The translations under genes and the position numbers were made by a program. Shown here piece after piece: positions 15,615-30,977 of a stretch of DNA of 64,000 bases (its first letter is position 1; every line of letters begins with the position of its first letter). The notes below the pieces were generated by a model. That model did no database searches. It was given only the letters and a program-made list of their open reading frames with translations, and had not been told where the DNA came from. The DNA is from Chlorobium sp. (GTDB taxonomy: Bacteria > Bacteroidota > Chlorobiia > Chlorobiales > Chlorobiaceae): NCBI GenBank assembly GCA_005862285.1, contig SZXW01000007.1:1-64000 (forward strand), given 5' to 3'.

Positions 15615-18227
15615 ATGTTCCTCATTCAAGGGCCACAGGAATCGGCAGCGTTACGCGGTAACGTTCACTCTATGGTACATGACGGGCACAATCTTTCCGG
15701 CCTTACTGAAAAAGAGGTTGGAGAACGTCTTGAGCGGGATGGTTACAATGAACTGCCCGCTTCTGCAAAAAACTCCTTTTTCAGGATTTTAGCCGATGTT
15801 CTCCTCGAGCCGATGTTCATAATGCTTCTGGTATGCGGCTTTCTCTACATTCTGCTCGGAAGCGTGGCCGATGCCTTTATGCTGCTCGGGTTCGTGGTTG
15901 TCGTCATCGTCATTACCCTCTATCAGGAAGAAAAGACGCAGAAAGCCCTCGATGCCCTGCGCGATCTTTCAAGCCCCCGAGCGCATGTGATCCGTGATGG
16001 ACGGCAGCAGAGAATAGCCGGAAGGGAGGTTGTCCGGGACGATATAGTGCTGCTTTCCGAAGGAGACCGTGTGCCTGCCGATGCCGTTCTTCTTTTCGGT
16101 GAGCATATTTCAGTCGATGAATCGCTTCTGACCGGAGAATCGGTGCCAGTGAGGAAAAAAGTTTCTGACGGCAACGATGCGGCTCTTCATCCAGGCGGGG
16201 ATGATCTGCCCTTTGTTTTTTCAGGAACCCTCGTTGTAAAAGGCCGTGGTATCGCAAAGGTAATCAGGACCGGTGCAGATACGGAGCTTGGATCGATCGG
16301 AAAGGCTCTCGGAAAACTTGTTCAGGGAGATACTTCCCTGCAGCGCGAAACGCGCGTTATCGTAAGGAATTTCAGCATTCTGAGCTTGATTCTCTGCACC
16401 CTCGTCGCGATTGTCTATTCTTTTACCCGACATGACTGGCTGAACGGTTTTTTGGCAGGCCTTACCCTTGCAATGGCTACCCTGCCGGAAGAATTTCCCA
16501 TTGTGCTGACTGTTTTCCTTGCGCTTGGGGCATGGCGCCTTTCGCGGTATCAGGTCCTGACCCGCCAAATACCTGCAATTGAAATGCTTGGTGCGGCTAC
16601 CGTGCTTTGTGTCGATAAAACCGGCACGCTGACCGAAAACCTCATGACCGTGAGAGGGATCGTAACCGATGGTGTTTATACTCCTCTTGACGGAGATCCC
16701 GCTTCTCTCGACGAGGAACTGCATGAAGTGATCGAATATGCCATTCTTGCGAGTCCGCCCGATCCTTTCGATCCGATGGAAAAGGCCATGAAACGGCTCG
16801 GTGAACGAACCCTTGGAGGGACGGACCATTTGCACCGGGACTGGCAGCTCGTGAAAGAGTACCCTCTGTCCGACAGTATCCTTGCCATTTCACACGTATG
16901 GAAGTCTGCCAGCGGAAGCAACTATGTGATCGCCTCGAAAGGCGCTCCCGAGGCGATCGCGGACCTGTGCCATTTCGATTCCGTGCGCTTTTCAGCACTT
17001 CAGGAGGAGATCAATCTGCTTGCGGACAGAGGTTTCCGTGTTTTAGGAGTTGCAAGGGCTGTTTTCCCTGAATCGGAGCTGCCTCTTCAGGTGCACGATT
17101 ACCAGTTTGAGTTTCTCGGCCTGCTCGGACTGGCTGATCCTGTACGCGACGGGGTGAAAGATGCGCTTCGGGAGTGCTACAGCGCCGGGATCAAGGTCAA
17201 GATGATTACCGGTGATTATCCCCAGACAGCCCGATGCATCGGGCAGGAAATAGGGCTTGATCATTTCGACAGCATTATTACCGGCGACGAGCTTGACCGT
17301 ATGGACGATGAATCGCTGCAGGATCGAATTGCGGAAACCGGTATTTTTGCGAGAGTTGTCCCTCATCAGAAACTGCGTATTGTCCAGGCGTTGAAAAAGC
17401 ATGGAGAAGTCGTGGCAATGACCGGGGACGGCGTGAACGACGCACCGGCATTGAAAGCATCGGATATCGGCATTGCGATGGGTGGCAGAGGGACCGATGT
17501 TGCCCGTGAGGCCGCTTCGATCGTGCTGCTCGACGATCATTTCGATTCAATCGTGCGTGCGGTCCGGATGGGGAGGAGAATTTACGACAATCTGAAAAAA
17601 GCCATGGCTTTCATTGTTTCAGTCCACCTTCCTATCGCCGGAATGTCCCTGATACCCGTTATTATGCATTGGCCTCTTGCTTTGCTGCCGGCCCATATAC
17701 TTTTTCTCGAACTTATTATCGATCCTTCCTGCACCATCGTATTCGAAATGGAAGCGGATGAAAAGGATATCATGAACCGGAAATCGCGCGGGCTCGATGA
17801 GCCTCTGTTCAGCCGGGCAGTGTTCAGTAGGGCTGTTATTCAGGGAACATGCATTTTTCTTGCCGTACTTGGTGTTTATGCCTTCATGCTTAATCATGGA
17901 TACAGCGAAAACGAAGCCCGTACCATTTGTTTCACTGGAATCGTTTCAGGTAATCTCGGACTGATTTTTGCCAACCGTTCCTGGACGAAAAGCATTTTCG
18001 GCATGCTCGGCGAACCAAACAGGGCGCTCTGGTGGGTGACCGGGGGAGCCGTGTTTTTTCTCGCCGCTGCGGCAGGCATACCTTTTCTTCAGGAACTTTT
18101 CCGGTTTGCACCACTTCAATGGCGTCACATGCCTTTGGTCCTCGGGCTCAGCATACTCTGTTTTGTCATAGCGGATGTCGTGAAAATGAAACACCCGAGA
18201 CTTCTCATCCAGAGCTTTTCAAAATGA
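15615..18227 (+). CDS. Cation-translocating P-type ATPase (P2-like)
   Basis: DKTGTLTE phosphorylation motif, TGES, GDGVNDAPALKASDIGIAMG, PEEFP in TM4. Confidence 0.95.
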   Translation: MFLIQGPQESAALRGNVHSMVHDGHNLSGLTEKEVGERLERDGYNELPASAKNSFFRILADVLLEPMFIMLLVCGFLYILLGSVADAFMLLGFVVVVIVITLYQEEKTQKALDALRDLSSPRAHVIRDGRQQRIAGREVVRDDIVLLSEGDRVPADAVLLFGEHISVDESLLTGESVPVRKKVSDGNDAALHPGGDDLPFVFSGTLVVKGRGIAKVIRTGADTELGSIGKALGKLVQGDTSLQRETRVIVRNFSILSLILCTLVAIVYSFTRHDWLNGFLAGLTLAMATLPEEFPIVLTVFLALGAWRLSRYQVLTRQIPAIEMLGAATVLCVDKTGTLTENLMTVRGIVTDGVYTPLDGDPASLDEELHEVIEYAILASPPDPFDPMEKAMKRLGERTLGGTDHLHRDWQLVKEYPLSDSILAISHVWKSASGSNYVIASKGAPEAIADLCHFDSVRFSALQEEINLLADRGFRVLGVARAVFPESELPLQVHDYQFEFLGLLGLADPVRDGVKDALRECYSAGIKVKMITGDYPQTARCIGQEIGLDHFDSIITGDELDRMDDESLQDRIAETGIFARVVPHQKLRIVQALKKHGEVVAMTGDGVNDAPALKASDIGIAMGGRGTDVAREAASIVLLDDHFDSIVRAVRMGRRIYDNLKKAMAFIVSVHLPIAGMSLIPVIMHWPLALLPAHILFLELIIDPSCTIVFEMEADEKDIMNRKSRGLDEPLFSRAVFSRAVIQGTCIFLAVLGVYAFMLNHGYSENEARTICFTGIVSGNLGLIFANRSWTKSIFGMLGEPNRALWWVTGGAVFFLAAAAGIPFLQELFRFAPLQWRHMPLVLGLSILCFVIADVVKMKHPRLLIQSFSK

Positions 18228-18260
18228 TGAGAAGTGCACATCTACCTGAGACGGCCGTCG

Positions 18261-18339
18261 TTTTCAGCTGCATCGCGCAATCATAGCCGGATGCCGGGCA
18301 TGGAAAGCCCGGCAAGGGTACGATTGTGCGCTGAAGAAA
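18261..18339. terminator. Large hairpin between convergent genes (possible bidirectional terminator)
   Basis: Nested arms TTTTCAG..GCGCAATC..GCCGGGC/GCCCGGC..GATTGTGCGC..CTGAAGAAA. Confidence 0.55.
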
Positions 18340-18349
18340 GGGAAGCTTA

Positions 18350-18805
18350 TCAGTTCTGTTGCGGTTCGAGAGGGAGGTTTACATCCTGCTGGATGATCTC
18401 CTCGATATTGTTGGCCGGAATGAAGAAACGGTTCATCGGGGTCTGGTCGGTTCTTTCATGAAGGATGCCGCGTGCCGTGCCGGCAGTGATCGAAGCAAGA
18501 TGGCCGGCAAAATGCTTGGGCAGCAGGATAAACCCGCTCTGCTGGCCTGTAAAGAAGTTCCATGATTCAGGATCGATTGCAAAGATGCAGCCTGCTTCGA
18601 TAGTGATGAAAGACCGTTCATCCTGAACGAAGTCATTTTTAAAAAGCACCTTCAGGAGCTTCTGTTTACTGTCCACACCGAAATTCAGGCCCACATTTAT
18701 TTTAACCGGCTTGTTTTCCTCGAAATAAGTCGGTTCAACAACAAGCTGTTCGGTAACAATTTTGACAAGGGCATAATTTACCCGGCGTTCGGCGTTTTCT
18801 GACAT
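18350..18805 (-). CDS. Hypothetical protein, possibly SecB-like
   Basis: YALVKIVTEQLVVEPTYFEENKPVKINVGLNFGVD...AGHLASITAGTARGILHERTDQTPMNRFFIPANN. Confidence 0.5.
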   Translation of the reverse strand: MSENAERRVNYALVKIVTEQLVVEPTYFEENKPVKINVGLNFGVDSKQKLLKVLFKNDFVQDERSFITIEAGCIFAIDPESWNFFTGQQSGFILLPKHFAGHLASITAGTARGILHERTDQTPMNRFFIPANNIEEIIQQDVNLPLEPQQN

Positions 18806-19034
18806 TATTGTAAAGAAATGGTTGAAAAAAAATAAGTTGTATTTAACAAAAAACTTTCAGCGCAAAAATAGGGAATTTATTTGAAACACACTTTTAATTA
18901 TTTTCTTTTCTTTTTCGCTTCTGATACCGGGCGCCTCCAGTTTCTCTGAAACTTGAAACATCTGGAGGATCATCTTGTTCCACTGGTTTCCCGGTCTTCA
19001 GTAACGGTTTATTGATATCAAACGATCACCAGCC

Positions 19035-20642
19035 ATGCCTGTATCATCCCTCCCTTGTTCTTTCGAATCTGATGTTCAACTTGCAAAAAGGGCCTATTAC
19101 GGTATTGGGGGTGAAACCCGCTTCATTGCTTATCCAGCGTCTCCTTCGGAGCTTGCGGACCTTCTGATCTGGAACAGGGAAAAATGCTATCCCCTCGCCC
19201 TGATGGGCTCTGGAAGCAACATACTTTTTTCCGATGCGCCGTTTCCGGGGATTGTCATTTCCCTGAAGAAGATGAACCGGATGTTCTGGATTTCCGGCAA
19301 TGAACTCTTCTGCGGGGCAGGTGTGGAAAACAGTGCAATAGCCGAAGAACTTCTGAGAAGCGGAAGGGCGGGGGGAGAATGGCTATACAGGCTGCCCGGT
19401 CAGATCGGCTCGACCGTGAGAATGAATGCCCGCTGTTTCGGAGGAGAAGTATCCGAACATACATCGGGTATTCTGTCGGTTTCAGTCGATGGCCGCATGC
19501 GCTGGCTTGCAGCTGACCAGGTTTTTCATGGATACAAGCAGACATCGCTGATGGGAAATCCTGAAATAGTCACTGCTGTGCTTCTTCGTTTCCCCGATAT
19601 CCGTCCAAGGCATGAGATAGAAAAGCTGATGAGGAAAAATGAACAGGAGCGTCTTGAAAAGCATCATTTCGATTACCCGAGCTGCGGGTCAACGTTCAAG
19701 AACAATTACAGCGCCGGGCGCTCAAGTGGTAAAATATTCGATGAGCTTGGTTTCAGGGGAGAGAGGGAAGGAGGTGCCGAGGTCAGCCATTATCATGCAA
19801 ATTTTATTTTCAACAAGGAAAACGCCACGGCGGATGATGTGCTCCGGCTTGCCGCCCGCATGAGAAGTGCCGCGTATGAAAAAGCCGGTGTCCGGCTCGA
19901 TCTTGAAGTTCAGTGCATTGGTTCGTTCGATCGCGCCTTGCTCGATAATTGCGGAGTGGCATATACTCCGGATCCTGACGATGCTTCCAGAGGATGGACA
20001 GGACTTTTATCGGGGAATGATGATCTCGTTCCGGCAGAACTCTATCCTCGCATGCTTTTTCAGGGTCCGATAACAGGTTATCACGGAATGGATCATGAAT
20101 ATCCTTCAGGGGTTTTTGCTGAGATCGAACAGCTTGCTTCCCTCGAAGATGCTGAAAGAAATCCGGGGCTGCCGTTACTTCGCTGGACAACCCGGCTTAA
20201 CAATAACGATGCATTTCTGGTCAATCCTCCTGAATCTGTCGGAAAGGGAGCGTTTCTCGACGGTCTCTGGCAGTTCAGCGTTTCAGAACTTTTTATCGCC
20301 TGTGGTGACCGTAAGAACGGTTACCTCGAATTTGAAATGACGCCGCAGGGCCAATGGGTCGCTTTACGTTTCGAGGGCCCGCGAAAAAAGGCATCGGGGT
20401 GTGAGTTTCTTTCTGCCGAACCCTGGATAGAACATATCAGGCTTCTGCAGGGTGACGCGGAATTCGGAATGGAACTGTCATATGAACTACTTCAGCCGTT
20501 CGTCAGCGAAGGAGCAATAGCCTTGCAGTGCTGTGCTTCCACGGGAAAAGGGGAGTACGGGCTGCTTCCCTGGTGGAAGGATCCGTCAAAACCGGCCGAT
20601 TTTCATCAGCCGGGATATTTTTTCCGGGTTCCTTTATCGTAG
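19035..20642 (+). CDS. MurB-like FAD-binding protein with extra C-terminal domain
   Basis: YGIGGETRFIAYPASPSEL, RLPGQIGSTVRMNARCFGGEVSE, PSCGSTFKN, GGAEVSHYHANFIFN; then ~230 aa not part of MurB. Confidence 0.8.
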   Translation: MPVSSLPCSFESDVQLAKRAYYGIGGETRFIAYPASPSELADLLIWNREKCYPLALMGSGSNILFSDAPFPGIVISLKKMNRMFWISGNELFCGAGVENSAIAEELLRSGRAGGEWLYRLPGQIGSTVRMNARCFGGEVSEHTSGILSVSVDGRMRWLAADQVFHGYKQTSLMGNPEIVTAVLLRFPDIRPRHEIEKLMRKNEQERLEKHHFDYPSCGSTFKNNYSAGRSSGKIFDELGFRGEREGGAEVSHYHANFIFNKENATADDVLRLAARMRSAAYEKAGVRLDLEVQCIGSFDRALLDNCGVAYTPDPDDASRGWTGLLSGNDDLVPAELYPRMLFQGPITGYHGMDHEYPSGVFAEIEQLASLEDAERNPGLPLLRWTTRLNNNDAFLVNPPESVGKGAFLDGLWQFSVSELFIACGDRKNGYLEFEMTPQGQWVALRFEGPRKKASGCEFLSAEPWIEHIRLLQGDAEFGMELSYELLQPFVSEGAIALQCCASTGKGEYGLLPWWKDPSKPADFHQPGYFFRVPLS

Positions 20643-20668
20643 CTGGAGCTTTGTTTTCGGGATCAGGA

Positions 20669-21535
20669 TTACAGATCGGCGGCAGGCATACGTGATACCT
20701 CTTCGGCAGTGAATACCGGTCCTTCCTTGCATACATAAACTGAACCTACATTGCAGCGTCCGCATTTGCCGACTCCGCACTTCATACGGTTTTCCAGGGT
20801 GGTATATACATTGCGCTCTTCGAAACCAAGTTTTTTAAGCGAGACAAGGGTGAACTTGATCATGATCGGCGGCCCGCAAAGCACAGCGACGCAGTTCTCC
20901 GGTGATGGAGCAGCCTGCTCGAGCACGGTCGGAACAAAACCTACCTTGTTTTTCCAGTCGGGTGTTTCTCCGCCCGGATCGACCGTAAGAACCAGATCGA
21001 CATCGTCCCGTTTTTCCCATTCTTCGAGTTCATGCTTGTAAACAAGATCGGCTACGGTCCTTGCACCGTAAACGATGGTGACTTTTCCGAACTTGTCCCG
21101 CTGATCGAGACATGACCAGATGACGCTGCGGGTTGGCGGAAGAGCGATGCCTCCGGCAATGAAGAGCAGGTTTTTTCCGTAAAAATCTTCTATGGGAAAG
21201 CGGTTGCCGTAAGGACCTCGGAAAGTGATGAGATCGCCGATGTCGGAATTCGCCAGTGCCGAAGTCACCCTTCCGGACTGCCGGAAGGTACACTCGATAT
21301 AATCTTTTCTGGTTTCAGGGCTCGCAACGCAGAAGGTGCTTTCTCCCTCACCGTAAATGCCGTAAAGACCGAACATGCCTGTACGGTAGTTTTCCCTGAA
21401 CAGTTCGTGGTCGGCCGGGTCCTGGAACTCGAGCCTCATGGTTTTGACGCCGGGCGCCTCGTCATGGCGAGCCACGATTTTCATTACGGCCGGTTTGTAG
21501 ATATTCTGGTGCGAGTGATGGTTGTGTTCTTTCAC
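20669..21535 (-). CDS. FAD/NAD(P)-binding oxidoreductase, FlxA/HydG-like
   Basis: FRGPYGNRFP, LLFIAGGIALPPTRSVI, CGPPIMIKF, CGVGKCGRCNVG; GTG start overlaps stop of upstream gene (CCGTGA). Confidence 0.85.
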   Translation of the reverse strand: MKEHNHHSHQNIYKPAVMKIVARHDEAPGVKTMRLEFQDPADHELFRENYRTGMFGLYGIYGEGESTFCVASPETRKDYIECTFRQSGRVTSALANSDIGDLITFRGPYGNRFPIEDFYGKNLLFIAGGIALPPTRSVIWSCLDQRDKFGKVTIVYGARTVADLVYKHELEEWEKRDDVDLVLTVDPGGETPDWKNKVGFVPTVLEQAAPSPENCVAVLCGPPIMIKFTLVSLKKLGFEERNVYTTLENRMKCGVGKCGRCNVGSVYVCKEGPVFTAEEVSRMPAADL

Positions 21536-22545
21536 GGAAGTAGTTTTGAAATCTCTTGTAATGTTTCGGTAATACCCATATCGACCGGACACTGGCGGGA
21601 GCACCTGCCGCAGCCGGAACATTTGTTCAGACTGAATTTTCCGGGGAAGTAGTTGAACTTGTGCATGATGCGCTGACGCCAGCGGGCGGATTGTGTCGAG
21701 CGGGGGTTGTGGCCTGAAGTATGCATGGTGAAAAGGGCGAAGGAGCAGCTGTCCCAGTTTTTTCTTCTGATGCCGCTGTAGGTATCGCCTTCGTCCTGGA
21801 TGTCAAAACAGTGGCAGGTGGGACAGAGATAGGTGCAGGATGCACATCCGATGCAGCGTACCGAGATTTCCTTCCAGAACCTGCTCTCGAAGTTTTCAGG
21901 ATTTTTGAGCCATTCGACACAGGCCTCCAGGTTGAACTTTTCGGGTACCGCAGCGGGAGGCACCGGGCTTTCCGTGCTCTCCTGCAGAAGGTCCGCGATT
22001 GAAGCGAATGCATCGCGGCCGCGGTCGGTAATTTCCTCGACCAGCCATCCCTTTCCGCCATTTATGGGGCGCAGCAGGATATCTGAACCCATCGTGCTGT
22101 CCGGGGCAAGGTTAAGGGATGTGCACATGCAGAAATCATCGGCTTTGACGCAGGCAATAGAAACAATGACCGTTTCGTTACGGCGCTGGAACCAGTATTC
22201 GTCCCTGTAGTCCCACCCGAAAAGCGGATCGTCGATGGCGACACCGGAAGCATCGCAGGGACGGGCGCCGAATACGATCCTTTTACCCGAAGGAGGCAGG
22301 AATTCGGTGGTATCGATTGCCTGCTTCCTGATGGCATATTTGAGTATCGGCTCGGTCTGCGGGAAAAACAGCTCCTTGATGGAAAGGTCAGGGAGTACGA
22401 TATCCAGCTCGAACTCCGATGCTTTCTCAACCGGCCGGTAAGCTGAAATATTCGATTTGCGGACAGGCCCTATGACTGTATTTCCTGATGACTTCCATCG
22501 TTCGATACAATTGTCGAGTTTATCGGCTGAAAGTATTTTTGGCAT
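21532..22545 (-). CDS. 4Fe-4S protein, hydrogenase/sulfur reductase beta subunit-like (FlxB/HydB-like)
   Basis: CIGCASCTYLCPTCHCFDI and CSGCGRCSRQCPVDMGI ferredoxin motifs; VFGARPCDASG. Confidence 0.85.
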   Translation of the reverse strand: MPKILSADKLDNCIERWKSSGNTVIGPVRKSNISAYRPVEKASEFELDIVLPDLSIKELFFPQTEPILKYAIRKQAIDTTEFLPPSGKRIVFGARPCDASGVAIDDPLFGWDYRDEYWFQRRNETVIVSIACVKADDFCMCTSLNLAPDSTMGSDILLRPINGGKGWLVEEITDRGRDAFASIADLLQESTESPVPPAAVPEKFNLEACVEWLKNPENFESRFWKEISVRCIGCASCTYLCPTCHCFDIQDEGDTYSGIRRKNWDSCSFALFTMHTSGHNPRSTQSARWRQRIMHKFNYFPGKFSLNKCSGCGRCSRQCPVDMGITETLQEISKLLP

Positions 22546-22558
22546 ACGAATAGGTTAC

Positions 22559-23389
22559 TTAAAGAATGAAAGTCTCGGAATCGTCTTTTTTGAAACTGGC
22601 AAGAACCGGTTCCTGAGTCATGCTCAGTCCTGCGAAATGATCGAATGACTCCCTGGCTTCTACTGCCATCCTGCGGTTGATGAGGCGCAGCGGAATGTTG
22701 ACCGGACAGGCCCTGTCGCAGTTGCCGCACTCGACACACCTTCCTGCGAGATGGAATGCCCTGATGATGTTCCATTCGAAATTTCCGAGTGTATGAGGGG
22801 AAGTATTGATCCATTGCGGTTGATTGCAGTCGACGATGCATCTGCGGCAGTAGCACATGGGACAGGCCTGTCTGCATGCATAGCATTTGATGCATTTCGA
22901 GAATTCATCCTGCCAGAAGGAAAAACGTTCCTGTGCGCTCATCTTCTCGAGCTTTTCTATGACAGGATCGGAATCAGAAACGGAGGGATTTTCGCTGAGA
23001 GAAACGACAAATTCGGAAAATTCGAGAGCGTTGGTGCCATCGAGAGCTTTTATGGTGTTTCCTGCCGGCTCGAACCCGAAAATGACTATCTGGTCAGGGT
23101 TGAGCTGGTTTTCTGCTGCAAGAATGTTGATCGAGCGGATTCCTTCGGGCCGCAGAAAGACTGCAACGCTTTTTTCATCGCTCAGCAGGCTTTCGGTGAC
23201 AAGATAACCGGAAAGATTTGCAATGCAGAGGTCGTCAAGCACCAGGCGGTCAACCTGTTCGGCAGAGCTGATGAACACCGGCCTCCGTCTTTCAGGGGTG
23301 GTTCCGCCTGTATATCCGACAACAAGTTTTACTTCGCCGTTCGAAAGAAGTTCCTTTGCCCTGTTTCTGTATTGTACCTCTATGCTCAT
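22559..23389 (-). CDS. 4Fe-4S protein, FlxC-like
   Basis: CIKCYACRQACPMCYCRRCIVDC and CVECGNCDRACPVNIP; within Flx/Hdr cluster. Confidence 0.8.
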   Translation of the reverse strand: MSIEVQYRNRAKELLSNGEVKLVVGYTGGTTPERRRPVFISSAEQVDRLVLDDLCIANLSGYLVTESLLSDEKSVAVFLRPEGIRSINILAAENQLNPDQIVIFGFEPAGNTIKALDGTNALEFSEFVVSLSENPSVSDSDPVIEKLEKMSAQERFSFWQDEFSKCIKCYACRQACPMCYCRRCIVDCNQPQWINTSPHTLGNFEWNIIRAFHLAGRCVECGNCDRACPVNIPLRLINRRMAVEARESFDHFAGLSMTQEPVLASFKKDDSETFIL

Positions 23390-23402
23390 GAAATGTAATG
23401 AG

Positions 23403-23852
23403 TTAAAGTGATGCCTGCGACTGCGTTTCCTCGATAAGCCCGTGGTACTGGGTAAATGGACCGAGAGCGCGGATATCTTCGGTTATGGTGTTGATGAGCT
23501 CTGCGAATTTCACGCCCTCAGCAGCACTGATCCAGGAATATTTGACCCTGTCTGTGGGTATACCGGTAAAATCGAGCAGGGCACGAAATACTGTCCATCT
23601 GCGTCGTGCATGATAGTTGCCGTGAGTGAAATGGCAATCCCCCGGATGGCATCCGCTTATAAGCACTCCATCAGCACCTTTCTGCAGGGCTTTGAGTATG
23701 AACATCGGACTGATCCTGCCGGTACAGGGGAGGCGCACAAGACGCACATTTGGAGCGTATTTCAGTCGGCTAGTGCCGGCAAGGTCAGCTCCTGCATAGG
23801 TGCAGTATGTACAGACAAAAGCAACTATTTTCGGTTCGAATTGTTCGCTCAT
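23403..23852 (-). CDS. MvhD/FlxD-like iron-sulfur subunit
   Basis: PKIVAFVCTYCTYAGADLAGTSRLKYAPNVRLVRLPCTGRISPMFILKALQKGADGVLISGCHPGDCHFTHGNYHARRR. Confidence 0.9.
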   Translation of the reverse strand: MSEQFEPKIVAFVCTYCTYAGADLAGTSRLKYAPNVRLVRLPCTGRISPMFILKALQKGADGVLISGCHPGDCHFTHGNYHARRRWTVFRALLDFTGIPTDRVKYSWISAAEGVKFAELINTITEDIRALGPFTQYHGLIEETQSQASL

Positions 23853-23904
23853 CAGTTTGTTAAGTGGCAAATTTTCTCATGATTGACCGGAATGCGGGAC
23901 TTTT

Positions 23905-25875
23905 TCAGAGCCCCATCACCTCGGCGAATATCTGTTTTTCGGTAAATCCGGCGAGATCGATGCTGTTCGACCGGCAGAACGTCACGCAGGTGCCGCAACC
24001 CTGGCACAGTCCGGGATTGACTGATGCAACCTGCTTGATGACCCTTCCTGAACGGTCGAGAATATCTTTTTTCTCGATAGCGTTATACGGACAGGCAAGG
24101 ACGCATCCCCAGCATCCGGCACAGGTAGCTTCATTGCAACTTGCTATTACGGGCTCGCGTTCAAGCCTGTCCTTGCTGAAGAGTGCAAGAACCTTGCTTG
24201 CCGAAGCCGATGCCTGGGCGACCGAATCGGGGATGTCTTTCGGTGACTGGCATGTCCCGGCCAGGAAAATACCTGCCGTAGACGATTCCACCGGGCGCAG
24301 CTTGAGGTGGGCCTCGTTATAGAAACCGTATTCGTCGTAGCCGATCCCGATGGTTTTAGCGAATTCCTTGGCGCCGGGCTGGGCAACCATGGCTGTAGCG
24401 AGCACTACCATATCCGCTGCAATTTCCACAGGTCGGCCCAGCAGCGTATCGACACCGCGTACCATCAGCTTTCCGTTTTCCTCCCAGACTTTGCTGACCC
24501 TTCCGCGCAGGTAGGATGCTTCATCTTCCTCGATGGCCCTGCGGGTGAATTCGTCATATCCTTTTCCGCCCGCACGGATGTCCATGTAGAAAATGCTGGT
24601 TTTGCCTCCTTGTACCTTGTGCGCATAGAGCATCGCATGTTTAGCGGTATACATGCAGCAGATTTTCGAGCAGTACCTGACCCCTTTCGACGGGTCGCGC
24701 GACCCTGCGCACTGAATGAAGACGATATGTTCCGGCTCCTTCTGGTCGGACGGCCGCAGGATTTTGCCTGCCGTGGGTCCGCTGGCAGATGCGAGGCGTT
24801 CGAACTGAAGGCCGGTAATGACATCCGCATATTTCCCATACCCGTATTCGCCGTACATGGCGGTGTTCTGGACCTGAAAACCGGTAGCAACGACAATTGC
24901 CCCGACTTCGAGTTCGAGAAATTCGTCCTGCATCTCGAAATCGATGGCATCCGCTGCACAGGCTTTCTGGCAGAGCTTACACTTGCCGTTTTTGAAATAG
25001 ATGCAATTTGTCTTGTCGATGACCGGGTTGTTCGGCACCGACTGTGCAAAGGGGGTATAGATCGCGGTGCGCTTTCCAAGGCCGCAGTCGAACTCGCTAG
25101 GAATTTTCTTGACAGGGCATTTGAGGTAACAGTCTCCGCAGCCTGTGCATTTATCCATGTGGACAAAGCGGGATTTCATGCGTACCCTGACTTTGAAATT
25201 TCCGATATAGCCATCGACATGTTCCACCTCTGCATAGGTGAGGAGACGGATATTGGGATGCTGTGCCGCCTCGACCATTCTCGGAGTCATGATGCACTGT
25301 GAGCAGTCGAGCGTGGGGAAAGTTTCTGACAATTGAGCCATGTGGCCGCCAAGAGATGGTTCACGCTCGACAAGCACGACCTCCTGTCCTGCACTGGCGA
25401 TATCGAGCGCGGCCTGTATGCCCGCAATGCCTCCGCCGATCACCATTGCGCGGCGGGTGACAGGTACCTCGATCGGCTGGAGCATGTTGTTGCGCTTGAC
25501 CTTTTCGACCATCGACCGGGTAATGTCAATGGCTTTATCGGTCGCCATATCACCATCGCTGTGCACCCATGAACAGTGCTCACGAATATTCGCTATTTCA
25601 CATAGGTAGGGGTTGAGGCCCGCTTCAGCGCATGCTTTCCGGAAAGTTGCCTCATGCATTCTCGGGGAGCAGGCCGCTACGACGACTCCTGTCAGATGGT
25701 TTTCACGAATGGCTTTCTTGACGGATTCCTGCCCCGGATCGGAACAGAAATATTTGTATTCCACCGAGACGGAAACTCCAGGGTGATCTCCCAGTGCGGC
25801 AGCAAGCCTGGAAGTATCAACCTTACCGGCGATATTCTCACCACAGTGACATATGAAAACTCCTATTTTAGCCAT
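23905..25875 (-). CDS. HdrA-like FAD / iron-sulfur flavoprotein
   Basis: MAKIGVFICHCGENIAGKVD; AMVIGGGIAGIQAALDIA; CTGCGDCYLKCP; CQGCGTCVTFCRSNSI. Confidence 0.92.
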   Translation of the reverse strand: MAKIGVFICHCGENIAGKVDTSRLAAALGDHPGVSVSVEYKYFCSDPGQESVKKAIRENHLTGVVVAACSPRMHEATFRKACAEAGLNPYLCEIANIREHCSWVHSDGDMATDKAIDITRSMVEKVKRNNMLQPIEVPVTRRAMVIGGGIAGIQAALDIASAGQEVVLVEREPSLGGHMAQLSETFPTLDCSQCIMTPRMVEAAQHPNIRLLTYAEVEHVDGYIGNFKVRVRMKSRFVHMDKCTGCGDCYLKCPVKKIPSEFDCGLGKRTAIYTPFAQSVPNNPVIDKTNCIYFKNGKCKLCQKACAADAIDFEMQDEFLELEVGAIVVATGFQVQNTAMYGEYGYGKYADVITGLQFERLASASGPTAGKILRPSDQKEPEHIVFIQCAGSRDPSKGVRYCSKICCMYTAKHAMLYAHKVQGGKTSIFYMDIRAGGKGYDEFTRRAIEEDEASYLRGRVSKVWEENGKLMVRGVDTLLGRPVEIAADMVVLATAMVAQPGAKEFAKTIGIGYDEYGFYNEAHLKLRPVESSTAGIFLAGTCQSPKDIPDSVAQASASASKVLALFSKDRLEREPVIASCNEATCAGCWGCVLACPYNAIEKKDILDRSGRVIKQVASVNPGLCQGCGTCVTFCRSNSIDLAGFTEKQIFAEVMGL

Positions 25876-26202
25876 AGCTCAATCATTTAATATGTATCTG
25901 CATGCGTTTACAGCATCAGCAGGAAGCAGGAGACAACAAGGTCTTCCCGTTTCAATATTTCCAAAAAGGCCTGAAATTCACCGGATGTCGTTTTGTTCAG
26001 CCGTTTTGATTGGCTTTATTCCGGTTACAGGGCGATTTCCCGCAAGTGATATGGAACCTGGGAACATGTATCGGATTGAACAACATAACTGCTTTGTTTT
26101 TAACTGATACCGTTAAAAAATTGTATTCAGAAATAGACAAGATATATTCAGGACCTCTTCCGGACTTTGTCGACAAAAACACGGTTGCTACCCGTGTTCG
26201 TA

Positions 26203-27777
26203 TTATTGTTTCGAGACCATGTCAAGAGCGGGAACGAAATGTTTTCCCACTGCGACTTCTGATGGATCGGCTCCGCAAGCTATAGCGACAAGTTCGGAAA
26301 TATAATAAACTGGCATCGGTTTAACATCACCAAAGCGTTTTCTCATGCTTTCCTGCCGCATATCGAGGTTTGCATGGCATAGAGGGCATGCGACGACGAA
26401 TGCGTCAGCGCCGTTTATCGATGCGTTTTTTGCAATGTTATGCGTCAGTTCTTCGACGAGCGGTTGCTGAGCGAGTGTAAGTCCTGCTCCGCAGCATTCG
26501 ACTTTGAACGCCCAGTTTACCGGTCTGGCCCCAAGTGAAGCTACAAGTGATTCCATCTTCACAGGGTTCTCCTGATCATCGAATCCCATGGCTTCCATGG
26601 GACGGACAAGAAGGCAACCGTAATAACAGGCGAGGTTCAGGTCCTCGAGAGGTTTTACAACCCTCTTTTTGATTTCTTCCGGATCGATCGCTTCGAGCAG
26701 CTGGGTCACACTGATGAATTCAGCAGTACAGGTCGGTTCGATGCCTGTGATGGAACGGACTTCCTTTCGAAGTTCCGGCGATTCGGCAAGAGTCTTGCGT
26801 GTTGTTACCTGGCGGTTCTGGCAGGCCGCACAAGGCGCAAGCACATAATCGAATCCCTGCGCGTCGGCCAAGGCCTGGTTTCTTGCAGGGAGAAGAAGAG
26901 CGAGCTTGTGATTGGTAGCATGGGCCGATGTTGCACCGCAGCAGTTCCAGTCCTCTATTTCCTGCAGGTTGATGCCGAGCAGCGAACACATTTTTTTAAC
27001 GGAAATATCATATTCCATAGCTGTTCCACTGAGAGAACAGCCGGGATAATAACCGATGGTCATGCCTGGTTTGATAGACACAGGCGCTGTAACCGCAGGC
27101 TCTTTCTTTACCGGTCGTCTTTTGGGTGCCGGAGCAGGAGCATGATGTTCAGAAGCTGCAAAAATTTTTTCAATCTGGTCCCTGCCTTTTACCGAGCTTT
27201 TTCCTCCGATATTATGCAATGGATTGATCTTGCCCTGCATGATCATTTTGACGCCTGATGAGACATCCTGGGTGAATGTCCTTGTACGCAACTTGTAGCT
27301 GTTGACCAGTGAAAGCTCCTGAAGACGGCCGTATTTACGGACATTGTTCAGAAAAGAGACATGAAATGCCGTGACCAGTTTTTTTGCCTTGTCGTCGGAA
27401 ACGATATCCTTTTCGAGAGCGAGTTCTCTCAGGGAATCCATTGTAGCGGCAATGTCCATGTTCTGCGGACAGCGGGCGGTACAAGTCTGGCAACCGACAC
27501 AGTACCAGAGGGCATCGCTCCTCATGGCTTCTTCTATAAGGCCGCCCTGGACAAGGCGCATGATCTTTGCGGGAGGATTATCCATGAATGATCCTGCGGG
27601 GCAGCCTGCGGTACATTTTCCGCACTGGTAGCAGCAGTTGTAGTTATTTCCCGTGGATTCCTCAAGTGAGTGCTTCAGGGTATCGAGTGAATTTATCTTG
27701 GTTTTTGACACGTGGTATAAATGTGTGGTATATGTTACTTGACGTGATGCGGGGAGCGAAACGGCAAAACATATCAT
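26203..27777 (-). CDS. HdrC-HdrB fusion protein
   Basis: N-term CYQCGKCTAGCP and CVGCQTCTARCP (HdrC-like); C-term two CCG motifs (YYPGCSLS...WNCCGAT...APCAACQ and CYYGCLL...VECCGAG...CPLCH, HdrB-like); alternative GTG start near 27711. Confidence 0.88.
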   Translation of the reverse strand: MICFAVSLPASRQVTYTTHLYHVSKTKINSLDTLKHSLEESTGNNYNCCYQCGKCTAGCPAGSFMDNPPAKIMRLVQGGLIEEAMRSDALWYCVGCQTCTARCPQNMDIAATMDSLRELALEKDIVSDDKAKKLVTAFHVSFLNNVRKYGRLQELSLVNSYKLRTRTFTQDVSSGVKMIMQGKINPLHNIGGKSSVKGRDQIEKIFAASEHHAPAPAPKRRPVKKEPAVTAPVSIKPGMTIGYYPGCSLSGTAMEYDISVKKMCSLLGINLQEIEDWNCCGATSAHATNHKLALLLPARNQALADAQGFDYVLAPCAACQNRQVTTRKTLAESPELRKEVRSITGIEPTCTAEFISVTQLLEAIDPEEIKKRVVKPLEDLNLACYYGCLLVRPMEAMGFDDQENPVKMESLVASLGARPVNWAFKVECCGAGLTLAQQPLVEELTHNIAKNASINGADAFVVACPLCHANLDMRQESMRKRFGDVKPMPVYYISELVAIACGADPSEVAVGKHFVPALDMVSKQ

Positions 27778-28166
27778 GTTAAATAAAAATACAATAATGT
27801 CAAATTATCCGTGGTAAATAATTTTTAATGATTGTTAAGTTTTTTAGGCCGGAAGCCTCATAATGTCTTTCTTTTCCAAGGTTCTGAACATCGATAAGGA
27901 TTCAGGAGTATAAATTAGAAACAGTATAAATTTGAAACATCCATTCCGGAGAAAGAGTTCAACGTTTTCTGTATGAAGGACCGAAAGCATGCGATACGGT
28001 GCGCGGCGTGTCTCATCTTAACCGGATATTCGTCAGCGGCATCTTGCTGTCAGCAGCAAATTCAAGGATGGAAAATACAGGGAAATTCATTGATATGATG
28101 CACTTTTTGCTTATGATAGCAGGGTATTTTGTTTTGTTTAACATGAATTATTTTTTGTAACAGATT

Positions 28167-29384
28167 ATGTTTGATGAAATAGAGTTTGACAAGATCAAGC
28201 GCCTTCCCAAGTATGTGTTTGCAGCGGTCAATGAGCTGAAAATGGCGGAGCGGCGTGCCGGCGAGGATGTGATAGACTTTTCGATGGGCAATCCTGACGG
28301 TCCGACACCTCAGCATATCGTCGATAAACTGGTCGAAAGCATCAACAAACCGCGTACCCATGGTTATTCGGTGTCAAAAGGTATTTACAAACTGAGGGGA
28401 GCTGTAGGAAACTGGTATAAACGTAAATACAATGTCGATCTCGATCTCGATCGGGAAGTAGTTGCCACCATGGGCTCCAAGGAAGGATATGTCCATCTGG
28501 TTCAGGCGATCACCAATCCCGGCGATCTTGCGATGGTCCCGGACCCATGTTATCCTATTCATTCCCAGGCGTTCATTCTTGCCGGAGGCAATGTCCATCG
28601 CCTGAAGCTTGAAATGAACGATGATTTCACCCTCGATGAAAAGGGATTTTTCCGTCATATCGAGCAGGCTTTACGTGAATCATCCCCGAAACCGAAATAC
28701 CTTGTGGTCAATTTCCCGAACAATCCGACCACTGCAACCGTTGATCTTTCGTTTTATGAAAAGCTTGTTGATATCGCCAGGCAGGAACGTTTCTATATTA
28801 TCAGCGATATCGCCTACGCTGAAATAACGTTCGACGGCTACCGGACACCTTCCATCCTTCAGGTTCCCGGAGCGAAGGATGTCGCGGTCGAGAGCTACAC
28901 CCTTTCAAAAACGTACAACATGGCTGGTTGGCGTGTCGGGTTCATGGTTGGTAACGCGAAACTTATCGGCGCCCTTGAGAAAATCAAAAGCTGGCTCGAC
29001 TACGGGACCTTCACTCCGATCCAGGTCGCTTCGACCATAGCGCTGAACGAAGACCAGGGCTGTATCGAACAGATCAAGGATGTTTATCAGAAGCGCCGCG
29101 ATGTCATGGTAAAAAGTTTTACAAATGCAGGCTGGCCGCTTGTTTCACCCCGTGCGAGCATGTTTGTCTGGGCACGGATTCCTGAACAGTTCAGGTATCT
29201 GGGAAGCCTCGAGTTCAGCAAAAGACTGCTTACGGAAGGCAAGGTGGCGGTAAGCCCGGGCATAGGGTTCGGTGCCTATGGCGATGAGTATGTAAGGATT
29301 GCCATGATCGAAAACGAAGAGAGGATCCGTCAGGCGGCGAGAAATATCAGAAAATTCCTGCGTGTTCCCGAAACGGAGTCCTGA
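28167..29384 (+). CDS. PLP-dependent class I/II aminotransferase
   Basis: DFSMGNPDGPTPQHIVD, VVNFPNNPTTATVD, YTLSKTYNMAGWRVGFMVG. Confidence 0.92.
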   Translation: MFDEIEFDKIKRLPKYVFAAVNELKMAERRAGEDVIDFSMGNPDGPTPQHIVDKLVESINKPRTHGYSVSKGIYKLRGAVGNWYKRKYNVDLDLDREVVATMGSKEGYVHLVQAITNPGDLAMVPDPCYPIHSQAFILAGGNVHRLKLEMNDDFTLDEKGFFRHIEQALRESSPKPKYLVVNFPNNPTTATVDLSFYEKLVDIARQERFYIISDIAYAEITFDGYRTPSILQVPGAKDVAVESYTLSKTYNMAGWRVGFMVGNAKLIGALEKIKSWLDYGTFTPIQVASTIALNEDQGCIEQIKDVYQKRRDVMVKSFTNAGWPLVSPRASMFVWARIPEQFRYLGSLEFSKRLLTEGKVAVSPGIGFGAYGDEYVRIAMIENEERIRQAARNIRKFLRVPETES

Positions 29385-29396
29385 ACACCGGATTTT

Positions 29397-30977
29397 CTAT
29401 TCATGCAACTCGAATATTTCGAGGATCGCTTCCTGAATGTGATCGAGCACCATCCCTGACGAAACCAGGCTTGATACATCGTTTGCAAGATCACCGGCCC
29501 GTCCGTGAAACCATGCCGCACATGCACCGGCGTTGAAAATATCCGCCCCTTTTGAAGCAATGGCCGCGATCATTCCGGCGAGCACATCTCCGGAGCCGGC
29601 TGTAGCGAGTGCCTCGGTTCCGGATGTATTCAGCAGAACAGGCCCGGCAGGTCCGGCAATAACCGTAGGATTTCCTTTCAGAAGAACATTGACATGGTGT
29701 CGCCTGGCGAAATTTTGTGCGTTTTCCAGCGGATCTGAACTGATTATATCTGTCGGGATGCCGCTCAGGCGGCTGAATTCACCATAATGAGGTGTAAGGA
29801 TCGTTTCACTGCAGTGCTTCAGTATTTCGGGCAGGTCCGGACAGGAAAGGGCATAGAGTGCATCTGCATCGAGAACAAGTTTTTTCTCAGTAATCCCCGG
29901 ACAGGCAAGAAGTTCCCTCAACAATTCTACCGTGCTTTCATCCCGTCCAATTCCGCACCCGATCATGATTGTATCGGCCCATCCGGCTTTTTCAAGGATT
30001 GCCGCTTTATCCCTGCCGATAACTATCGCTTCCGGTACGGCATCATGCATTGCCGCCGCCATGGATAACGGGAGGGAAACGCAGACATACCCGGCTCCGG
30101 TTTTAACGGCGGCTTTCACGGAGAGGATTGCCGCACCGAGCATCGAGGCATGTTTCGACCGTGAGCCGGCGACGATCAGCACTTTTCCGTTTGTATGTTT
30201 TGTGCTTTCAGGTTTTCTGAGATGAAAATGTTCGGCGGCGAACTCTTTGTCGGTCAGGTAACAGGAAGCAGGTTCTACAAGAAAGCGGGGAATCGAAATC
30301 TCGGCGATTTCCGTTTCTCCGCTGAGCGCCGGGCCGTCATTGAGAAAGAAACCGGTTTTCAGGAACGCCATGGTGACGGTTATATCGGCTTCCACCGAAG
30401 TCGAGGCCGAAAAGCCAGTTGTGGCGTCGAGACCGGAAGGGATGTCCACGGAAAATGTGACCGCACCGGTACGGTCACGTATGGTATTGACAAGCTCTAT
30501 GCCTTCTGAAAGAGGTGATGGGAGTTCATCCTTGTTTACCTGCAGTATCAGGCCGGTGCCGGTAACAGCGTCGATAACGGCGTCGTATGGCGTCTCGGCG
30601 GCATACGGCAATGCTTCATCATGACTTCTGAAAATACGCAAGGCAGTTGTGAAGCGGGCGTATGCTTCGAGCGTTGCGAATCCTTCCCTGTTGATGCCCT
30701 GTAGCATTTCTTCAGGGTAAAGAAGGACAAGGTCAACCGTGGCGCCGAGGTTCAGCAGATGCCGGGCGATCACGAACCCGTCCCCGCCGTTGTTGCCTTT
30801 TCCGCATACGACAAGAAAGGAGCTCTCTTCCAGGTCTTCTGTTTCCAATTTCCTGCAGATAATCCGGACACATTCCCGGCCGGCAAGCTCCATCAGTCTC
30901 GTTTCGCCGATAAGGAGATCGGAAATTGCCGCCTTGTCGGCTTTCTGCATTTCTTTTGCGGTAACAACAGGCAGCAT
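29397..30977 (-). CDS. nnr: Bifunctional NAD(P)HX epimerase / ADP-dependent NAD(P)HX dehydratase
   Basis: VVCGKGNNGGDGFVIARHL (epimerase); LTPHYGEFSRL, GTEALATAGSGDVLAGMIA (dehydratase). Confidence 0.92.
   Translation of the reverse strand: MLPVVTAKEMQKADKAAISDLLIGETRLMELAGRECVRIICRKLETEDLEESSFLVVCGKGNNGGDGFVIARHLLNLGATVDLVLLYPEEMLQGINREGFATLEAYARFTTALRIFRSHDEALPYAAETPYDAVIDAVTGTGLILQVNKDELPSPLSEGIELVNTIRDRTGAVTFSVDIPSGLDATTGFSASTSVEADITVTMAFLKTGFFLNDGPALSGETEIAEISIPRFLVEPASCYLTDKEFAAEHFHLRKPESTKHTNGKVLIVAGSRSKHASMLGAAILSVKAAVKTGAGYVCVSLPLSMAAAMHDAVPEAIVIGRDKAAILEKAGWADTIMIGCGIGRDESTVELLRELLACPGITEKKLVLDADALYALSCPDLPEILKHCSETILTPHYGEFSRLSGIPTDIISSDPLENAQNFARRHHVNVLLKGNPTVIAGPAGPVLLNTSGTEALATAGSGDVLAGMIAAIASKGADIFNAGACAAWFHGRAGDLANDVSSLVSSGMVLDHIQEAILEIFELHE

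Follow-up and report, generated by a model that had tools for sequence, protein, structure and literature searches.

We analyzed a 64,000-nt stretch of Chlorobium sp. DNA (hereafter the window; contig C11 of a host genome of 2.61 Mb in 15 contigs) whose minus strand carries, at positions 20669-27777, six adjacent co-directional open reading frames (ORFs) transcribed in the order hdrCB (fused), hdrA, flxD, flxC, flxB and flxA. This operon probably encodes a cytoplasmic FlxABCD-HdrABC-type enzyme, namely a flavin-based bifurcating (in reverse, confurcating) NAD(P)H:ferredoxin:disulfide oxidoreductase. Computation establishes its gene set and gene order, the folds and cofactor ligands of its products, its universality in Chlorobiaceae, the purifying selection acting on it and its independence from the dsr genes. 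Pfam, NCBIfam and PDB matches back each of the six ORFs, and all seven functional subunits are encoded together with HdrC and HdrB fused, as an initial annotation made from the DNA letters had proposed. The Pfam families matched include PF02662, PF02754, PF17179, PF00175 and PF10418. Chance ORFs are ruled out because the gene order and the flanking genes recur across Chlorobiaceae, with the six genes keeping this order in every family member for which a sufficiently long contig was available.

The Hdr portion of the operon closely resembles heterodisulfide reductase subunits of known structure. The hdrCB gene (26203-27711, minus strand, as are the other five) codes for an HdrC half with two [4Fe-4S] motifs and an HdrB half with two complete CCG motifs for non-cubane clusters, and its product matches PF02754 twice in addition to a Fer4 dicluster domain. 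When compared with the PDB, the HdrB half finds HdrB chains such as 5odc_B as its best matches and the HdrC half finds 5odc_C. Every cysteine of the two CCG motifs is invariant among the aligned orthologues, and an AlphaFold model of HdrB (mean predicted local distance difference test score, pLDDT, 73) superimposes on 5odc_B with a template modelling (TM) score of 0.86 on the target in Foldseek. The hdrA gene (23905-25875) codes for the flavin adenine dinucleotide (FAD) subunit, in which bifurcation would take place; the protein has an Fe-S domain at its N terminus and two ferredoxin domains, one inserted and one at the C terminus. It aligns with the solved HdrA 5odc_A over residues 3-655 (E 5e-207), all matched Fe-S cysteine motifs are retained, and E359 and K412 align with E356 and K409 of 5ODC, equivalents of which are present in 36 of 36 Chlorobiaceae sequences checked. 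Retention of these residues points to a bifurcation-competent subunit. The best family model for this protein is HdrA2 at 781 bits, a score under that model's own cut-off, since at this locus the MvhD domain is encoded apart from hdrA.

That separate gene is flxD (23403-23870), which codes for an MvhD-like [2Fe-2S] protein predicted to be the electron entry to HdrA; it scores 172 bits against PF02662 (FlpD/MvhD; cut-off 22.3) and is the sole copy in the genome. The C-terminal half of the flxC product (22559-23389), a shortened FdhB/FrhB-like Fe-S subunit, matches FdhB of the Hdr-Fdh complex (7bkb_E, E 2e-22). Its AlphaFold model (pLDDT 84) has just two Foldseek matches below 1e-3, 7bkb_E and 8rvu_E (TM 0.70 and 0.68 on the query), both of which are FdhB-type electron-input subunits of Hdr complexes. 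As modelled, FlxC is thus a shortened FdhB-type adaptor like the subunit that feeds Hdr in the methanogen complexes. The remaining two genes code for a sulfhydrogenase-beta/AsrA-like Fe-S subunit, FlxB (21532-22545; PF17179; 9nez_B, sulfhydrogenase beta, E 2e-36), and for FlxA (20669-21535), an NAD(P)H- and FAD-binding flavoprotein with a DHODB-type [2Fe-2S] domain (PF00175 and PF10418; 9nez_C, sulfhydrogenase gamma, E 1e-51).

From these features we infer complex formation, bifurcation and its direction, the use of NADH or NADPH and the nature of the acceptor. Electrons from NAD(P)H would enter at FlxA and pass through FlxB, the FdhB-like adaptor FlxC and the [2Fe-2S] cluster of FlxD to the FAD of HdrA, where they would split. 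One branch would run through the ferredoxin domains of HdrA to low-potential ferredoxin. The other would pass by way of the HdrC half to the HdrB half, whose two non-cubane clusters would serve to reduce a disulfide. As a core enzyme of Chlorobiaceae, the complex would tie together the pools of NAD(P)H, photoreduced ferredoxin and thiols. Illuminated cells could use photoreduced ferredoxin to run it in reverse, as a confurcating enzyme; in darkness it could work forward and provide ferredoxin.

Several points weigh against a bifurcating role. The reaction centre of green sulfur bacteria reduces ferredoxin directly with light, so that it is not obvious why illuminated cells would need NADH to drive ferredoxin reduction, a point that may favour the reverse direction. 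The operon also holds no partner gene that would name the acceptor. Finally, E356 and K409 have been proposed as marks of bifurcating HdrA, yet they are reported in most HdrA proteins (PMC12054007); their equivalents therefore show competence for bifurcation and not its use.

The same HdrABC core with an MvhD entry is present in methanogen Hdr complexes with Mvh, Fdh or Elp (5ODC, 7BKB and 8RVU), in which an FdhB-like adaptor corresponds to FlxC. These complexes differ in that their donor is H2, formate or F420H2 and their acceptor is CoM-S-S-CoB, whereas the donor of Flx-Hdr would be NAD(P)H. Another close counterpart is FlxABCD-HdrABC (NADH dehydrogenase/heterodisulfide reductase) of Nitratidesulfovibrio vulgaris and Bilophila wadsworthia, which has the same seven functional subunits in the same hdrCBA-flxDCBA order (PMC12125255). 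The Chlorobiaceae operon differs in that HdrC and HdrB are one chain, it has no alcohol dehydrogenase neighbour, it resides in a phototroph and dsr is not required for it to be kept. A 0.96-Mb plasmid of Ilyobacter polytropus (L165 5307-14209) carries a canonical flx-hdr operon, with an aspartase gene before it and a gene for a TfrA-like fumarate reductase flavoprotein after it; apart from a B/C swap its gene order is that of Chlorobiaceae. In the flx-hdr operon of Candidatus Anammoxibacter (L152 5221-12832), hdrC and hdrB are two distinct genes.

FlxA and FlxB are also homologous to the gamma and beta subunits, respectively, of Group 3b NiFe sulfhydrogenases (9NEZ, and one on contig C2 of the host), which raises the alternative that the six genes are accessory parts of a cytoplasmic NiFe sulfhydrogenase and not an Hdr complex. 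The host genome does contain two NiFe large subunits, but both are outside the contig with the flx-hdr operon, and the one on C2 is part of a complete four-gene sulfhydrogenase locus that also encodes the small, beta and gamma subunits. No NiFe catalytic subunit was found in or adjoining the operon, the nearest NiFe genes being on other contigs, nor does an Mvh-type (HdrA-linked) hydrogenase lie beside it. The initial annotation had named a neighbouring hydrogenase, or placement of the subunits with unrelated sulfhydrogenases, as evidence for a different complex; neither is seen, since the sulfhydrogenase is encoded on a different contig and has a beta and a gamma subunit of its own, and since FlxA and FlxB resemble other Flx proteins more than they do HydG and HydB of the same genome. 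Specifically, when judged against sequences from Planctomycetota and Ilyobacter, as was done for FlxA, FlxB and FlxC, FlxA is 52-74% identical to the Flx counterparts versus 35% to its own HydG, and FlxB is 31-56% identical to other FlxB proteins, with which it groups, versus 24% to its own HydB. This grouping is based on identities more than on trees because the HydG and HydB branches are very long in the small trees obtained. With a separate intact sulfhydrogenase locus and with FlxA and FlxB closer to Flx proteins, we reject the accessory role, which we regard as very improbable.

The distribution of the operon marks it as a family trait of Chlorobiaceae. The initial annotation had guessed at a phototrophic green sulfur bacterial host, and the host is indeed of the Chlorobium lineage, its closest named relatives in a FlxC scan being Chlorobiaceae metagenome-assembled genomes (MAGs) with 91% FlxC identity. 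Among 98 genomes of the class surveyed, HdrA is present in all 65 high-quality Chlorobiaceae genomes (at least 90% complete and at most 5% contaminated), and a full-length HdrA orthologue was found in none of 12 genomes of sister families, with two weak partial HdrA matches in the next family left out. When loci were taken with wide flanks, the genes bordering the operon (MurB, an aminotransferase, NnrDE, PurL and SecA) were syntenic across Chlorobiaceae, and the synteny of operon and flanks therefore indicates vertical inheritance. One Chlorobiaceae MAG (G064) has two full-length HdrA/FlxC copies on its contigs C10 and C99 (L015 is C99), perhaps from a strain mixture or a duplication.

Beyond the family, 15 other Bacteroidota genomes gave more remote homologues (35-45%) in the FlxC search, and the closest match found outside the phylum is an operon in a Phycisphaerae MAG (L145, JAAZAW010000080.1). 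This operon matches that of Chlorobiaceae in its six genes, in their order and in the HdrCB fusion, with HdrA 74%, FlxD 77% and FlxA about 66-74% identical; it differs in its phylum and in its unrelated flanking genes. In the other Planctomycetota carriers hdrC and hdrB are split, where readable, and in an HdrA tree the Phycisphaerae sequence joins Chlorobiaceae with support of 100/99. The simplest reading of these sequences, from thin sampling, would be a single hdrCB fusion event and transfer in either direction between Chlorobiaceae and Phycisphaerae.

We next considered which disulfide the HdrB half might reduce. The initial annotation had pointed to the DsrC trisulfide, and DsrC as the dedicated partner, in disulfide or trisulfide form, would join reverse-Dsr sulfur oxidation to NAD(P)H and ferredoxin. 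DsrC of D. vulgaris is reported to interact with FlxABCD-HdrABC (cited in PMC10504309), and the host does have dsrC elsewhere in its genome, beside dsrAB and dsrL (G000:C10), with both C-terminal cysteines present (...ACKIAGLPKPTGCV). However, DsrC does not always accompany the complex. A DsrC match is absent from 16 high-quality Chlorobiaceae genomes; one of these (G017) was set aside because a dsrA fragment is present, which leaves 15 of the 65 with HdrA and with neither dsrC nor dsrA (G017 and G071 are both excluded from this dsr-less set, their dsr fragments suggesting assembly gaps). In these 15 genomes, which include Chlorobium ferrooxidans, no dsrA match exceeded the family cut-off, the weak matches resembling other sulfite reductases. 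This agrees with the published absence of dsr from C. ferrooxidans, C. phaeoferrooxidans and Ca. C. masyuteum (PMC5498476, PMC8302410); DsrA has also been found in only 71% of Chlorobium metagenomic operational taxonomic units (mOTUs) (PMC8125076).

All 15 dsr-less genomes have the complete six-gene operon at loci with enough sequence. On the HdrA tree the dsr-less label is scattered and needs seven changes, at least five of which are forced by well-supported branches, though some may be assembly gaps. Pairwise ratios of nonsynonymous to synonymous divergence (dN/dS) within the dsr-less group have medians of 0.04-0.13 for five operon genes, no higher than in the dsr-bearing group, for pairs limited to dS 0.2-1.5, where dS above 1 makes single values rough. 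Thus, the operon is intact and under purifying selection in dsr-less genomes, indicating that the complex is maintained without DsrC and that the disulfide partner conserved in the family must be a different one, or more than one. In addition, DsrC was not found in the Phycisphaerae carriers, and the Chloroherpeton-like genome G086 has DsrC but no Flx-Hdr. A dedicated role for DsrC is accordingly improbable, and the 15 high-quality genomes contradict DsrC as the sole partner; what stands of the earlier proposal is that DsrC may be one partner in species that possess it, including this host.

A second candidate acceptor is the low-molecular-weight thiol of Chlorobiaceae, as N-methyl-bacillithiol disulfide or persulfide. 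N-methyl-bacillithiol is the major thiol in Chlorobiaceae (PMC6282198), and the synthesis gene bshC is present in nearly all members of the family, including those that lack dsr. On the other hand, sister families carry bshC without Flx-Hdr, and no bshC turned up in seven carriers from outside the Chlorobi (of unknown completeness for the MAGs, and with one searched as a plasmid only), so that bshC and Flx-Hdr do not travel together. Among the genomes without a match is the Phycisphaerae carrier searched (L145), in which neither BshC nor DsrC was found. Gene deletions have been made in Chlorobaculum tepidum, and its bsh mutants grow just about 20% slower (PMC6282198). We therefore reject bacillithiol as a partner common to all Flx-Hdr carriers, given the seven in which bshC was not found; as the acceptor in this operon it is unlikely, and it is a possible partner in Chlorobiaceae but not a general one.

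The genomic context in other bacteria suggests a third candidate, in which electrons leaving at the HdrCB end would serve fumarate reduction in the reductive tricarboxylic acid (TCA) cycle, directly or via a thiol. Tubeworm symbionts intersperse flx-hdr genes with korABCD and tfrAB (PMC6315080), and the aspartase and TfrA-like flavoprotein genes that bracket the Ilyobacter operon fit the same idea. In Chlorobiaceae, however, the operon has no frd or kor neighbour, and apart from it the host genome encodes a complete SdhAB that has a CCG-type anchor of its own. This outcome seems rather unlikely to us.

Returning to the locus itself, the overlap of the last two genes claimed in the initial annotation is seen in the DNA as a GTGA junction, with FlxB ending in CTTCCG-TGA and an overlapping GTG at 21535 as a possible FlxA start. 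By alignment with orthologues, this GTG (288 aa) is the likelier start, as the mechanical ORF call extending to 21622 appears to begin too early. Similarly, GTG 27711 (502 aa) is the more likely start of HdrCB, the mechanical ORF spanning 26203-27777. A spacer of 327 bp (25876-26202) separates hdrCB from hdrA; among relatives this spacer ranges from almost zero to about 350 bp. An Rfam search of 18000-30000, this gap included, gave no match, and a promoter and terminator scan gave 9 and 7 sites versus 7.7 and 8.4 in shuffles, that is, no excess. Adjoining the operon, MurB (19035-20642, plus strand) has an extra C-terminal segment of about 235 aa with no Pfam match, and conservation over all 535 aa of the protein is 49-61% among Chlorobiaceae. 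Chlorobium relatives also keep, beside the operon, a 151-aa protein (18350-18805, minus strand) that has no Pfam match above cut-off, with 56-64% conservation.

The enzyme type itself is known and is described as widespread in anaerobes. Its primary description is reportedly that of Ramos et al. in 2015, in which Chlorobi may already be listed. Our literature search on FlxABCD with Chlorobi found no description of the Chlorobiaceae operon in the extracts it returned. What may be new is the universal, dsr-independent character of the trait in Chlorobiaceae together with the hdrCB fusion common to Phycisphaerae. We tentatively propose that Flx-Hdr is a core, dsr-independent bifurcating or confurcating enzyme of Chlorobiaceae that keeps photoreduced ferredoxin, NAD(P)H and thiols in balance in sulfur- and iron-oxidising species alike, and whose hdrCB fusion is shared with a Phycisphaerae lineage, probably by gene transfer. 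Since light already reduces ferredoxin in these organisms, a universally kept NAD(P)H/ferredoxin/disulfide enzyme poses the question of its role and direction. The dsr-less iron-oxidising species serve as natural gene-removal controls, indicating that the usual answer, DsrC, is not enough, and the genetically tractable relative Chlorobaculum tepidum makes the role of Flx-Hdr testable.

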